From positions 186,001 through 250,000 of the forward strand of contig NZ_QGGB01000007.1 of assembly GCF_003150675.1 (NCBI RefSeq): a stretch of 64,000 bases of DNA, written 5' to 3'. A program made the translations under genes and the position numbers. Shown piece after piece: positions 58,440 to 61,370 of the stretch. Position 1 is the stretch's first letter; every line of letters starts with the position of its first letter. The notes under the pieces are model-generated. The model did no database searches. It had not been told where the DNA came from and worked only from the letters and a program-made list of their open reading frames with translations. The stretch comes from Rhodohalobacter mucosus. GTDB lineage: Bacteria > Bacteroidota > Rhodothermia > Balneolales > Balneolaceae.

Positions 58440-59333
58440 ATGGCAAACCTTCGTGACATACGGAACCGGATTTCATCCATTGAAAACACGCAGCAAATCA
58501 CAAAGGCTATGAAAATGGTTGCTGCTGCCAAGCTCAGAAAAGCGCAGCAGCGTATGCTGGCAACACGGCCTTATGCCAACAAGATACAGTCTGTTGTCGG
58601 AAGGTTGGTGGATGGGTCAGGCTCGGATAATGTGTTACTGCGACAGCCCGAGTCAACCGAACGCGTCCTCATGATTGTAATAGGATCCGACCGGGGTCTT
58701 TGCGGTGCTTTCAATAACAATTTGTTCAAGGTGGTTGAGGAAAAGATCCGTACCAAGTACGCTGAGTTTCACGAAGAGGGCAATCTTGATATTATCACTG
58801 TTGGCCGCAAAGCAGATGCGTATTTCAAAAAGCGTAAATACAATGTTACCGGATCGAATGTAGGTTTCTTTGATAAGCTGAATTATGAGTCGACGGCTGA
58901 AATCATGGAGAATGCGATTGCATGGTTCAGCGATGGATCATATGACAAAGTGGTTCTTGCCTACAATGAATTCAAATCTGTGATTGCGCAAAATAGATTG
59001 GTTGATGAAGTACTGCCGATTCAGCCGGATAAGATCGCAGGAGATAACGAAGAGCCCGATTCCGGCAACGGTGATTACTTATTTGAACCGGATACGGAGA
59101 CCATTTTGCGTGATATTCTTCCTGCACACCTTAATATGCAGCTTTGGCGTGCGGTATTGGAATCCAATGCCTCCGAGCAGGGAGCTCGTATGGCGGCAAT
59201 GGACAACGCCACCGAAAATGCCAAGGAACTTGAGCGTGAACTGAGACTCGAGTACAATCAGGCTCGCCAAAGTGCTATTACAACAGAGATATCTGAAATT
59301 GTATCAGGTGCTGCAGCTCTGGAGGATGCATAA
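58440..59333 (+). CDS. atpG: F0F1 ATP synthase subunit gamma
   Basis: The 297-residue rotor shaft has the N-terminal MANLRDIRNRISSIENTQQI helix, the SDRGLCGAFN segment and the C-terminal MAAMDNATENA...NQARQSAITTEISEIVSGA helix. No atpD or atpC follows; the tRNA-Ser module and TolC gene come next, so beta and epsilon must be elsewhere, as in many Bacteroidota relatives. Confidence 0.95.
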   Translation: MANLRDIRNRISSIENTQQITKAMKMVAAAKLRKAQQRMLATRPYANKIQSVVGRLVDGSGSDNVLLRQPESTERVLMIVIGSDRGLCGAFNNNLFKVVEEKIRTKYAEFHEEGNLDIITVGRKADAYFKKRKYNVTGSNVGFFDKLNYESTAEIMENAIAWFSDGSYDKVVLAYNEFKSVIAQNRLVDEVLPIQPDKIAGDNEEPDSGNGDYLFEPDTETILRDILPAHLNMQLWRAVLESNASEQGARMAAMDNATENAKELERELRLEYNQARQSAITTEISEIVSGAAALEDA

Positions 59334-59413
59334 AAAGCTTTTTTGCAAGGTGATTAGGTAAAAATTATACAACCTGTTATTTTTAGTTTTTCCGGAGGGA
59401 TGGCAGAGTGGTC

Positions 59414-59435
59414 TCCCATAGGGATCCCTTCGGGG
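59414..59435. repeat. D-loop insertion: two tandem hairpins including a CCC-UUCG-GGG stem
   Basis: This 22-base insert contains TCCC-ATA-GGGA (59414-59424) and CCC-TTCG-GGG (59426-59435), the latter with a very stable UUCG tetraloop. It shares the layout of the second insertion: a small triloop hairpin, then a hairpin starting at GATCC. Confidence 0.75.
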
Positions 59436-59452
59436 GAATGCGGCGGTCTTGA

Positions 59453-59479
59453 CACGTAGTGATCCGCCGGTTGGCGGAA
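59453..59479. repeat. Anticodon-loop insertion: two tandem hairpins including TCCGCC-GGTT-GGCGGA
   Basis: This 27-base insert contains CAC-GTA-GTG (59453-59461) and then a perfect six-base-pair stem TCCGCC (59463-59468) with GGCGGA (59473-59478) over a GGTT loop. The alignment TAG-N-GATCC followed by GG-N-GGA is common to both inserts. Its GTG at 59459 opens the nuclease reading frame. Confidence 0.75.
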
Positions 59480-59776
59480 AAACCGTTGAGGCGCAAGTCT
59501 CCGGTAAGCTCTTTAAACATACTGAGGTTGAGCTTGTACAGCGCGTATATTTTGCAAAGTGAGAAAAATTTGTCTCATTACTATGGTCACAGCGGTGACT
59601 TAGATAAAAGACTTAAAGAACACAATGCTGGTAAAGTGCGTAGCACGAAAGCTTACAGACCCTGGAAATTGATCTATTTTGAAGAGTTTCTGACGAAATC
59701 GGAAGCATACAAAAAAGAACAATTTTTCAAAATTATTGATGGTTATAACTATTTGAAATCAAGTGGTATAATCTGA
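59459..59776 (+). CDS. Small GIY-YIG endonuclease
   Basis: The open frame gives up to 105 residues. Residues 27-105 form a compact GIY-YIG (URI/UvrC-type) nuclease domain: YSAYILQSE (Y30), HYYGHSGDLDKRLKEHN (Y42, G43, R51, H55, N56), YRPWKLIYFEEF and a conserved E87 in YKKEQFF. All expected catalytic positions are present, so it looks active. Residues 1-23 are read from the tRNA insertion and tRNA-like sequence, so the real start is more likely TTG at 59528 (about 82 residues, MSLYSAYIL) or TTG 59534. The domain begins at the point where the tRNA copy stops. It lies between this copy and the intact tRNA-Ser, a homing-like setting. The wider family includes uncharacterised nucleases found near tRNA genes; its substrate is unknown. 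Confidence 0.8.
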   Translation: MIRRLAEKPLRRKSPVSSLNILRLSLYSAYILQSEKNLSHYYGHSGDLDKRLKEHNAGKVRSTKAYRPWKLIYFEEFLTKSEAYKKEQFFKIIDGYNYLKSSGII

Positions 59777-59803
59777 TTTAGTAGTTAACGAATCTCTATT
59801 TTT

Positions 59804-59888
59804 GGAGGGATGGCAGAGTGGTCGAATGCGGCGGTCTTGAAAACCGTTGAGGCGCGAGTCTCCGGGGGTTCGAATCCCTCTCCCTCCG
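59804..59888 (+). tRNA. tRNA-Ser(UGA)
   Basis: The 85-base gene folds as a class II tRNA. Acceptor GGAGGGA (59804-59810) pairs with TCCCTCC (59881-59887), with discriminator G at 59888. The anticodon loop is CTTGAAA with anticodon TGA, and a long variable arm and T-arm GGGGG-TTCGAAT-CCCTC follow. CCA is not encoded. It is the complete partner of the broken copy at 59394. Confidence 0.97.
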
Positions 59889-59893
59889 CTTTT

Positions 59894-59930
59894 AAAAGCC
59901 CCGGCTTTCAGCATGGGGCTTTTCTTTTTA
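59894..59930 (+). terminator. Rho-independent terminator after tRNA-Ser
   Basis: AAAAGCCCC (59894-59902) pairs perfectly with GGGGCTTTT (59915-59923) over a 12-base loop, followed by a T-rich tail. It starts five bases after the tRNA end. Confidence 0.85.
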
Positions 59931-59987
59931 AATAAAACTGAGGTATTTGCGTTTGTGGCTTTGAAATGTGAACACCAATCCTCCACC

Positions 59988-61370
59988 ATGATCAAAAGAA
60001 TTCTGCTTGTCCTGATGCCTGCAGTATTGTTTATACAGCCGCAAATCCGAGCACAGGATACAGTTCGTGTAAATCTAACTGAATTTATTCAGCGCGGTCT
60101 TGAGAAATCCGGACAAGTTGCCTACCAAAGGGGTGCAGTCGATCTTGCAGAAAATAGAAGCGATCAGGTTCGGTCCCAGCGATTTTTGCCCAGCTTCCAG
60201 CTGAGTACCCAGCATGGTGTGGTGCCGGGTGTTAATTCGCCCCTGGGACTGCCTGACAGCCAGCTCTATCTGGATCCAAATTTGGAAAACGACTGGGAAA
60301 ACTGGGCGGTTTTTACACGGGCTGAAGTTCGTGCAGTACAGCCTGTTTTCAGTTGGGGAGCCATCACAAAAGCGATAGAAGCAGCTGAAGCCGGTGCTAA
60401 AGCGGCCCAACATCAATTTAGTGCCGCCCGATCGGAGGCAGAGATACAGCTTTATGATCTGTACTACAGTTTTCTCCTGGTAAAAGAGATTCAGGTTATT
60501 TTGGATGATGCATCTGAACAGATTACCAGGGTGGAAGAGCAGATAGAAGAGATGCGCGAAGAGGGTAACCCGGATCTGGAAGAATCTGACGTATTCAAAT
60601 TCGAAATATACCGGTCAGAGTTTGAGATAAGAAGAAAAGAGGTGGAGGAGAGTGCTGCTAGAGTGCGCAGGGTCTGGGAATATATACTGGGTGATGAAAA
60701 CAATGAGGTATTCAGGCCCGCTCAGCAATTTCTCGACCCGGTTCCTTTTGAACTTGAAGCTTACAGCTACTATCAGCAGATGGCTATGAATGAACGTGCA
60801 GAGCTGAAAGGTGTTGAGTACGGCATTGATGCACTCCAGAAAACATCTGAAGCGGTGCGTTCTCAGCAATATCCGCTACTATTTATGGGCTTGTCGGGCA
60901 GCTACGCCAACACACCGAATCGACCGCGACAAACCAATCCGTTCATTATAAACAGTACCAACTACGCATCTGCAGCGGTTGGCTTCGGAATAAGGCAAAA
61001 CCTCAATTTTGGATCCATGAAAGCTTCCGTGGAAAAAGCCGATATTGAATACAGAAGGGTCCGGGACCTGAAAAAAGCACTTACGGACGGCATTGTGCTG
61101 GAGCTCACTGAATCTTATCAGGAAGCTGTTGTTGCCGATGAAAGGGTTAAGCGTACAGACGAAGCGCTGGTCACAGCACGTAACTGGGTTAGAAATGAAC
61201 AACTTAACTACGATATCGGTTTTGGAGACGTGGAGAACCTGCTTGAAGCTGTTCAGAAAGAATTAGAATTACGTGTTGAGCTGAAACAAAATGTGTTCGA
61301 TTTTAATAAGAAGGTTGCAGCACTGTATAAGGCTTCGGGTATCCCCATTTATCAATTGAGCACGAATTAA
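59988..61370 (+). CDS. TolC-family outer-membrane efflux/secretion protein
   Basis: ATG at 59988 gives a 460-residue protein with a signal peptide ending at about residue 23 (IRAQD). The frame is open back to 59847, but those codons lie in the tRNA and terminator and are not used. The long periodic helices (residues about 45-240 and 265-450), separated by short barrel strands, are typical of TolC/OEP channel proteins, with the repeated AVQPVFSWGAITKAIEAAEAG and LNFGSMKASVEKA segments marking the two halves. No membrane-fusion or inner-membrane pump gene is in view on this side; an mlaC-like gene follows after 17 bases. Confidence 0.85.
   Translation: MIKRILLVLMPAVLFIQPQIRAQDTVRVNLTEFIQRGLEKSGQVAYQRGAVDLAENRSDQVRSQRFLPSFQLSTQHGVVPGVNSPLGLPDSQLYLDPNLENDWENWAVFTRAEVRAVQPVFSWGAITKAIEAAEAGAKAAQHQFSAARSEAEIQLYDLYYSFLLVKEIQVILDDASEQITRVEEQIEEMREEGNPDLEESDVFKFEIYRSEFEIRRKEVEESAARVRRVWEYILGDENNEVFRPAQQFLDPVPFELEAYSYYQQMAMNERAELKGVEYGIDALQKTSEAVRSQQYPLLFMGLSGSYANTPNRPRQTNPFIINSTNYASAAVGFGIRQNLNFGSMKASVEKADIEYRRVRDLKKALTDGIVLELTESYQEAVVADERVKRTDEALVTARNWVRNEQLNYDIGFGDVENLLEAVQKELELRVELKQNVFDFNKKVAALYKASGIPIYQLSTN

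Follow-up and report, generated by a model that had tools for sequence, protein, structure and literature searches.

A tRNA-Ser-linked GIY-YIG nuclease gene of Rhodohalobacter mucosus and what looks like a family of selfish elements living on bacterial tRNA genes

Few DNA sites in life are as conserved as tRNA genes, which are also known landing sites of mobile elements. The closest described system that we found is SegB of T-even phages, a free-standing GIY-YIG nuclease that is reported to make its cuts within tRNA genes, to occur together with tRNAs, and to promote the tandem or segmental amplification of tRNA and nuclease via recombination (PMC13096335). The survey in that paper extends over phages and archaeal viruses, describes no favoured tRNA isotype, and gives the motif RAWTSGAAC (PMC13096335). 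By our reading, this motif would be the reverse complement of the tRNA T arm GTTCGAATC, and several inserts in the tRNA-linked loci described below sit in this T-arm stretch. Group I introns that carry homing endonucleases have been described in tRNA genes (PMC3984707), and dispersed double-hairpin or repetitive hairpin elements in organelle genomes (PMC2800124).

Here we analysed a GIY-YIG nuclease gene in a 64,000-nt stretch of R. mucosus DNA (the window). Like SegB, it belongs to nucleases that sit beside tRNA genes and recur in tandem tRNA-nuclease units; unlike SegB, its family is chromosomal, consists of a single 80-residue domain, branches largely by tRNA isotype, and is accompanied by tRNA copies broken by hairpins. 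As with the group I introns of tRNA genes, an endonuclease gene is associated with a tRNA gene, but the window tRNA is uninterrupted and the nuclease lies outside it. The hairpins resemble the organelle elements in being short, single or double, and dispersed over the genome, but they occur on a bacterial chromosome and inside dead tRNA copies beside a nuclease. Among the titles and abstract beginnings of the best-ranked open-access matches, we found no chromosomal GIY-YIG genes sorted by tRNA isotype and no hairpin-broken tRNA copies, which is weak evidence of absence.

The tRNA-Ser(UGA) locus and its nuclease

The sole tRNA that ARAGORN found in the window is a tRNA-Ser(TGA), preceded by three pieces of a second tRNA-Ser that lie in order, upstream of it and on the same strand (Table 1). 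The first-pass annotation had reported both a complete tRNA-Ser from 59804 and a copy ending at 59504, and our mapping agrees with it. It had also described 20 identical bases followed by interrupted identity, correctly so, although the interruption consists of two inserts and not of scattered decay. The 22-nt insert lies between tRNA positions 20 and 21 with zero tRNA bases lost, and the anticodon-loop insert measures 26 to 27 nt, one base being ambiguous. The atpG gene lies outside the element and was used as the syntenic marker for the comparison with empty sites.

Table 1. Features of the tRNA-Ser(UGA) locus, in window positions
Feature	Position	Strand	Evidence or remark
atpG, ATP synthase gamma subunit	58440..59333	+	PF00231, 336.6 bits
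Broken tRNA-Ser(UGA) copy, tRNA positions 1-62	59394..59504	+	Without the 3' part
Broken-copy piece, tRNA 1-20	59394-59413	+	100% identity to intact tRNA-Ser
D-loop insert, 22-nt double hairpin	59414..59435	+	Core CCC ATA GGG AT CCC TTC GGG
Broken-copy piece, tRNA 21-37	59436-59452	+	100% identity to intact tRNA-Ser
Anticodon-loop insert after position 37	59453..59478	+	Hairpin CAC GTA GTG plus 16-nt hairpin TCCGCCGGTTGGCGGA
Broken-copy piece, tRNA 37-62	59479-59504	+	96% identity to intact tRNA-Ser
GIY-YIG endonuclease gene, 80 residues, tRNA-Ser-linked clade	59534..59776	+	Likely TTG start, TGA stop
Intact tRNA-Ser(UGA)	59804..59889	+	ARAGORN, Rfam

The small GIY-YIG gene that had been placed at the end of the broken copy is confirmed by PF01541 (53.1 bits, the cut-off being 22.6), but it probably does not begin at 59504. 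Its mechanical ORF opens with a GTG at 59459, within the broken tRNA; we placed the likely start at the TTG at 59534 because a TTG occupies that alignment column in the window gene and in each of six Ser-type relatives. Elsewhere in the Ser clade, L032 reads V at the presumed start column, and L009 has no start there and an ATG slightly upstream. The TTG start shared by these seven genes may mean low expression.

We rejected the idea that a group I intron or some other known RNA occupies the site: over 59300-60000, Rfam listed no group I introns at E values up to 1, and only the tRNA exceeded its family's gathering score. An integrase-type island was rejected as well, the nuclease being the sole forward ORF of at least 50 aa between the two tRNA-Ser copies, with no integrase or tyrosine recombinase among the ORFs of at least 50 aa in this interval. 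One antisense ORF overlaps the intact tRNA-Ser. In a DNA search of plasmid records, the best 20 of 53 match around the intact tRNA-Ser stretch.

The window protein is a single GIY-YIG domain. An alignment of 24 sequences shows no variation at Y16 and R26 and at least 90% conservation at Y5, G18, and E62; besides the PF01541 domain, the protein has the two Tyr motifs, the Arg, and the Glu of the superfamily, the last two of which we take to be catalytic. Its AlphaFold2 model (mean pLDDT 97.8) predicts the GIY-YIG fold. The first eight Foldseek matches of this model are UPF0213 proteins and Slx1, followed by I-TevI in ninth place (E 0.64); UPF0213 BH0048 is the top match with a TM score of 0.55 by query, and Slx1 reaches 0.70. 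The best sequence matches with solved structures are EF2693 and BH0048. The protein thus resembles the small UPF0213 proteins in fold and size and has Slx1 as a fold neighbour; Slx1 is a eukaryotic, multi-domain repair enzyme with an Slx4 partner and is not tied to tRNA genes.

Between the window gene and the six Ser-type relatives, we found 0.14 to 0.26 differences per non-synonymous site and 0.72 to 0.93 per synonymous site (0.14 to 0.27 and 0.72 to 0.96, respectively, over all 21 pairs of the seven genes). As non-synonymous differences are far fewer than synonymous ones, the protein is under strong purifying selection, which rules out a decayed gene. No PHROGs family matches it at E 0.01 and NCBIfam gave no match; among four other linked proteins, three match only the NCBIfam group I intron endonuclease, far below the cut-off. 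An origin as a phage or plasmid gene was rejected, all tblastn matches being below 60% identity (seven phage records, four from Listeria, two from Staphylococcus, and one uncultured, and two plasmid-collection records from Listeria). Unlike SegB, the window gene encodes the GIY-YIG domain alone, and neither its length nor PHROGs indicates homology to SegB beyond that domain. On present evidence, the window unit would work like a SegB-type free-standing homing endonuclease and would not be a member of the SegB family.

Linkage of the nucleases to tRNA genes and their isotypes

We collected PF01541 matches from 58 genomes (the source genome and 57 relatives, among the matches listed) and took from them 69 small-frame loci and 11 UvrC controls, leaving out about a dozen small-frame matches (mostly near contig ends), one tandem partner, and frames of 270 to 374 aa. 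One locus, L095, was UvrC-like and was moved to the UvrC group, which then numbered 12; L017, nearly a copy of L018, and L035, the twin of L029, were dropped. The loci L003/L004 and L005/L007 overlap, tandem genes being counted separately; L018 and L022 hold the same protein in one assembly, and five of the atpG loci considered below recur here as L026-L028, L030, and L031. In a tree of 101 proteins and 90 columns, many forks of which are unresolved, a clade of 29 other small GIY-YIG genes splits off with 97% SH-aLRT.

Of the 56 genes on the remaining, linked side (source genome and relatives, among the matches listed), 48 lie no more than 700 bp from a tRNA and share its strand in every case (48 of 48); the corresponding linkage counts are 2 of 29 genes in the other clade and 0 of 12 UvrC genes. 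The tRNA lies upstream of the nuclease in 42 of the 48, and at 26 to 81 bp in 30 of these. The source genome itself has eight matches to the window protein, seven of them within 560 bp of a tRNA. Loci found by protein similarity alone (17 fetched, 16 analysed) were tRNA-linked in 12 of 16 cases, all on the same strand, with linked loci in Bacteroidota, Ignavibacteriota, Patescibacteria-type lineages, Verrucomicrobiota, and one further bacterium. The two sides of the tree were named after the tRNA labels were known, and new genes served as the test: with the 25 best-scoring loci of a phylum-wide sample of 148 genomes added to the tree, a tRNA was found within 700 bp of six of seven genes on the linked side and of none of 18 on the other. 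The only linked-side miss, L191, lies 51 nt from a contig end. One genome of the collection, G108, holds 25 PF01541 matches in 3.0 Mb, an unusual GIY-YIG expansion.

The link between nuclease and tRNA suspected in the first-pass annotation is therefore strongly supported, as the side of the tree predicts tRNA linkage and, largely, isotype; the search that it had proposed, for other tRNA genes with a similar small nuclease, found them in quantity. GIY-YIG genes away from tRNAs, which it had taken as a possible refutation, do exist, but nearly all of them in the different clade. That clade probably holds the UPF0213 proteins proper and, unlike the linked side, comes near tRNAs in 2 cases and has tRNA pieces in 0 of 29. 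Neither tRNAs nor tRNA pieces lie near the linked-side genes L010, L033, L053, and L057. A hidden tRNA or other RNA near unlinked loci was rejected, Rfam giving no match at gathering score near 20 such loci.

The nuclease branches are sorted largely by tRNA isotype. The isotype label changes 27 times on the tree, compared with 58.6 times in shuffles and as rarely in 0 of 200, a statistic inflated by near-copies and orthologous loci. Isotypes and clades do not correspond one to one: rows of Met, Pro, Ser, Leu, and Val occur in more than one place, the two Ser(GGA) rows adjoin Met rows, and for Asn and Asp the label table shows no clustering beyond that of the shuffles, although the three Asp rows share a starred clade with L090 and L100, which have Asp pieces only. 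Other types are Val at L044 and Gly at L005. The Ser clade (98% support) comprises genes at tRNA-Ser(UGA), (CGA), and (GCU) whose neighbours differ, namely atpG in the window, BrkB in Litoribacter ruber, a 23S-intervening-sequence protein at L029, and a phosphoribosyltransferase at L032. This match of clade and isotype is independent of orthology, and so is the outcome for the new genes: among the six that are linked, L194, L199, and L200 (tree distance below 0.75) share the isotype of a close classified neighbour (Ser, Leu, and Asn), and L182 and L201 (Lys) and L190 (Pro) have no close classified neighbour and differ in isotype from the nearest one. The L029 neighbour, a 23S rRNA-intervening-sequence protein gene (PF05635), lies at 65-439 of that locus, near the tRNA-Ser(CGA) nuclease units.

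Broken tRNA copies, hairpins, and empty sites

Of 73 linked-side genes (56, L035, and 16 others), 53 had same-strand tRNA pieces at a distance of at most 700 bp, as against 0 of 29 in the other clade and 0 of 12 UvrC genes; the piece library consisted of 55 tRNAs from the loci themselves, and isotypes absent from it could be missed in the controls. Five genes that have no intact tRNA nearby have pieces fitting the isotype of their tree neighbours (L028, Ser; L034, Met; L069, Asn; L090 and L100, Asp). Where copies reach the variable arm and the intact tRNA is visible, they have the variable-arm type of the resident tRNA, with one mismatch in the window, which suggests local duplication rather than a foreign fragment.

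The single insertion into one tRNA envisaged in the first-pass annotation gives way here to a recurrent unit of broken tRNA and nuclease, often tandemly repeated. As in SegB-driven amplification, tRNA-nuclease units are repeated in five locus sets (L003/L004, L005/L007, L018, L029/L035, and L190). Isolates with the unit include Litoribacter ruber and Roseivirga thermotolerans. L190 has three units of 317 bp, of which the first begins with different bases, and L018 (3001-6069, in a Patescibacteria assembly) has nine copies of a 357-bp unit of tRNA-Ser piece and nuclease, possibly a real amplification or possibly an assembly effect.

Broken tRNA is repeated upstream of some nucleases (L005), and the nuclease clades track tRNA isotypes, both of which would suit a tRNA-cleaving toxin with pseudo-tRNA transcripts as decoys or antitoxin, loosely like the repeats of type III toxin-antitoxin systems; a survey from 2006 also describes the fusion of a GIY-YIG domain with a TrmH-like tRNA methyltransferase and proposes a part in RNA metabolism (PMC1564403). 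We consider such an RNA target very improbable, however: the copies in the window and at L029 have no tRNA 3' part and should not fold as tRNA, the copies of other loci lie downstream of the nuclease, and SegB, Slx1, and I-TevI act on DNA.

Many of the breaks carry hairpins. The AT-linked double hairpins measure 22 nt and interrupt D, anticodon, or T loops, with no tRNA base lost at the insert. Insert sites include GTTC^GAA in the T loop and CTTG^A in the anticodon loop. By hand count of the double hairpins, with orthologous sites collapsed, there are nine distinct cases, including L028, L029, L006, and a third copy in G010. A second kind, mostly of 16 nt (e.g., TCCCGANNNNTCGGGA), replaces about 8 nt of a tRNA arm. 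By eye, GC-rich hairpins occur at breaks in several phyla: double hairpins sit at CTTG^A in the tRNA-Ser copies of L018 and L020, on Patescibacteria-type contigs, their first stems differing in a compensatory manner (CCCGCC/GGCGGG versus CCCTCC/GGAGGG), and in the tRNA-Ala D loop of Roseivirga L015, and TCCCGACAGGTCGGGA replaces the anticodon arm of tRNA-Pro in Bacteroidota L190. Counting hairpins of at least 5 bp that start within 5 nt of a break edge, where both edges of one insert can count and L035 and L007 are left out, we found them at 49 of 121 edges, as against a mean of 3.4 (sd 1.8) and a maximum of 9 in 300 shuffles, and at 50 of 2280 random positions. At least one such hairpin was found in 31 of the 49 loci with broken edges, and none of at least 5 bp in the other 18.

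The hairpins also occur dispersed away from tRNAs, which counts against the targeting-element reading given below. The double hairpin is a dispersed repeat of 20 to 22 nt with the pattern CCC NNA GGG AT CCC TNY GGG (e.g., window 59415-59434 and L142 1001-13277); the window type has about 60 sites in the source genome (60 forward and 62 reverse matches with at most 2 mismatches), as against 0 for the reversed pattern. Two 16-nt types occur there at 41 and 24 sites, each against 0 in the control, and the latter has the pattern of the 16-nt hairpin in the window. Some dispersed double hairpins sit at the tip of another inverted repeat. Outside intact tRNAs, 9 of 25 double hairpins lie between flanking stems of at least 7 bp, and the mean flanking stem is 5.0 as against 3.24 (sd 0.30), a value reached in 0 of 2000 re-pairings.

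These flanking stems and the insertion of 22-nt double hairpins into tRNA loops at no cost in tRNA bases, together with UPF0213 and Slx1 as the nearest folds, would fit a structure-specific nuclease that, like Slx1, acts on the tips of hairpins or cruciforms, with tRNA arms as one case, and directly drives the insertion of hairpins into loops. The clades that follow isotype argue for sequence recognition instead, and we regard a structure-specific enzyme as quite unlikely.

Among 28 genomes of the genus searched, 24 gave the atpG locus: six have the nuclease gene, two have remnants, 15 are empty, and one, cut off, is uninformative. The first-pass annotation had asked for a comparison with strains that lack the block; all 7 informative genomes with the gene or a remnant had broken tRNA-Ser copies, and none of the 15 empty genomes did (Fisher 5.9e-6, ignoring relatedness; the 7 include related genomes and so represent fewer independent events). 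The eighth such genome, G001, is cut at its contig end. Occupancy changed five times on a poorly resolved atpG tree, three of the changes being forced by starred branches, and the orthologous site thus shows the patchy presence by which homing endonucleases are recognised. One genome empty at atpG, G011, has a Ser-type nuclease elsewhere, at tRNA-Ser(CGA) (L029). The unrelated tandem duplication and decay that the annotation had named as an alternative is therefore right about duplication and decay, but at the atpG site these go with the nuclease.

In the source genome, all five nuclease-linked tRNAs have broken copies, compared with 8 of the 35 others (hypergeometric 0.002, or 0.003 if 9 of 35, a ninth, tRNA-Ala(GGC), appearing at a laxer threshold). 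Two arrays of dead tRNAs have no nuclease match nearby, namely L127 1306-1854 (C8, tRNA-Asp; 5.4 units of 101 bp) and L129 719-1213 (C1, tRNA-Arg; 4.1 units of 121 bp), and their units consist of tRNA pieces and terminator-like sequence carrying hairpins. Relatives carry a nuclease at tRNA-Asp and tRNA-Val. Such arrays may be relics of lost nucleases, or the process may need no nuclease; given the 8 of 35 nuclease-free tRNAs with broken copies, the nuclease may be dispensable, or was lost there.

On a rival reading, tRNA loci would duplicate in tandem by ordinary slippage, dead copies would gather dispersed palindromes, and small GIY-YIG genes would passively hitch-hike in these safe, transcribed flanks, as the nuclease-free broken arrays and the dispersed nature of the hairpins would allow. 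Passive hitch-hiking predicts neither the isotype match, nor the outcome for the new genes (6/7 versus 0/18), nor the restriction of broken copies at the atpG site to occupied genomes, and the difference between 5/5 and 8/35 in the source genome also speaks against it; we judge it unlikely.

A possible mechanism and its meaning

We think it probable that the window unit is a tRNA-gene-targeting GIY-YIG element, one of a family, whose free-standing nuclease is specific to the genes of one tRNA. Support for this comes from the same-strand linkage, the match of clade and isotype, the co-occurrence of nuclease and broken copies, the hairpins at many breaks, the purifying selection on the protein, and the patchy occupancy of the orthologous site. 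A bare single-domain nuclease would recognise the genes of one isotype, here tRNA-Ser, and reside beside them on the same strand. It would cut the tRNA gene within its conserved arms, and recombinational repair would then copy the nuclease beside the tRNA and tandemly duplicate the tRNA-nuclease unit, in keeping with the repeated units seen; the unit would move by homing. One tRNA would stay intact because the cell needs it, and the extra copies would be broken at D, anticodon, or T loops or arms, where the GC-rich hairpins seen in them would kill the tRNA and presumably the cutting site.

The dead copies are altered within tRNA arms, and the intact tRNA-Ser has one and the same sequence in two occupied genomes (G020 and G010) and three empty ones (G018, G008, and G023); occupied G015 and empty G011 likewise share an identical tRNA-Ser. 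Nothing visible therefore protects tRNA-Ser from the nuclease, and resistance of the host tRNA through sequence change was rejected. A much wider version of the targeting-element reading holds that these are minimal selfish elements spanning phyla, each made of an isotype-specific GIY-YIG gene and a hairpin-carrying tRNA copy, that the capture of hairpins at loops is integral to spread and to immunity from re-cutting, and that the same nucleases built the arrays of dead tRNAs and seeded the dispersed hairpins; we put this forward tentatively and with considerable doubt.

What emerges looks like a family of selfish elements, apparently undescribed, that live on the tRNA genes of many bacteria. 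If so, these 80-residue nucleases would be the smallest parasites of tRNA genes known to us. They raise the testable question of how an intact tRNA gene can persist in a cell next to a nuclease expected to cut it, a question that the SegB paper also raises for phages (PMC13096335). If the reading is true, the isotype-sorted 80-residue proteins would be natural sequence-specific nucleases with predictable targets, and the family would explain arrays of dead tRNAs and form a chromosomal counterpart to the SegB-driven amplification of tRNAs in phages.
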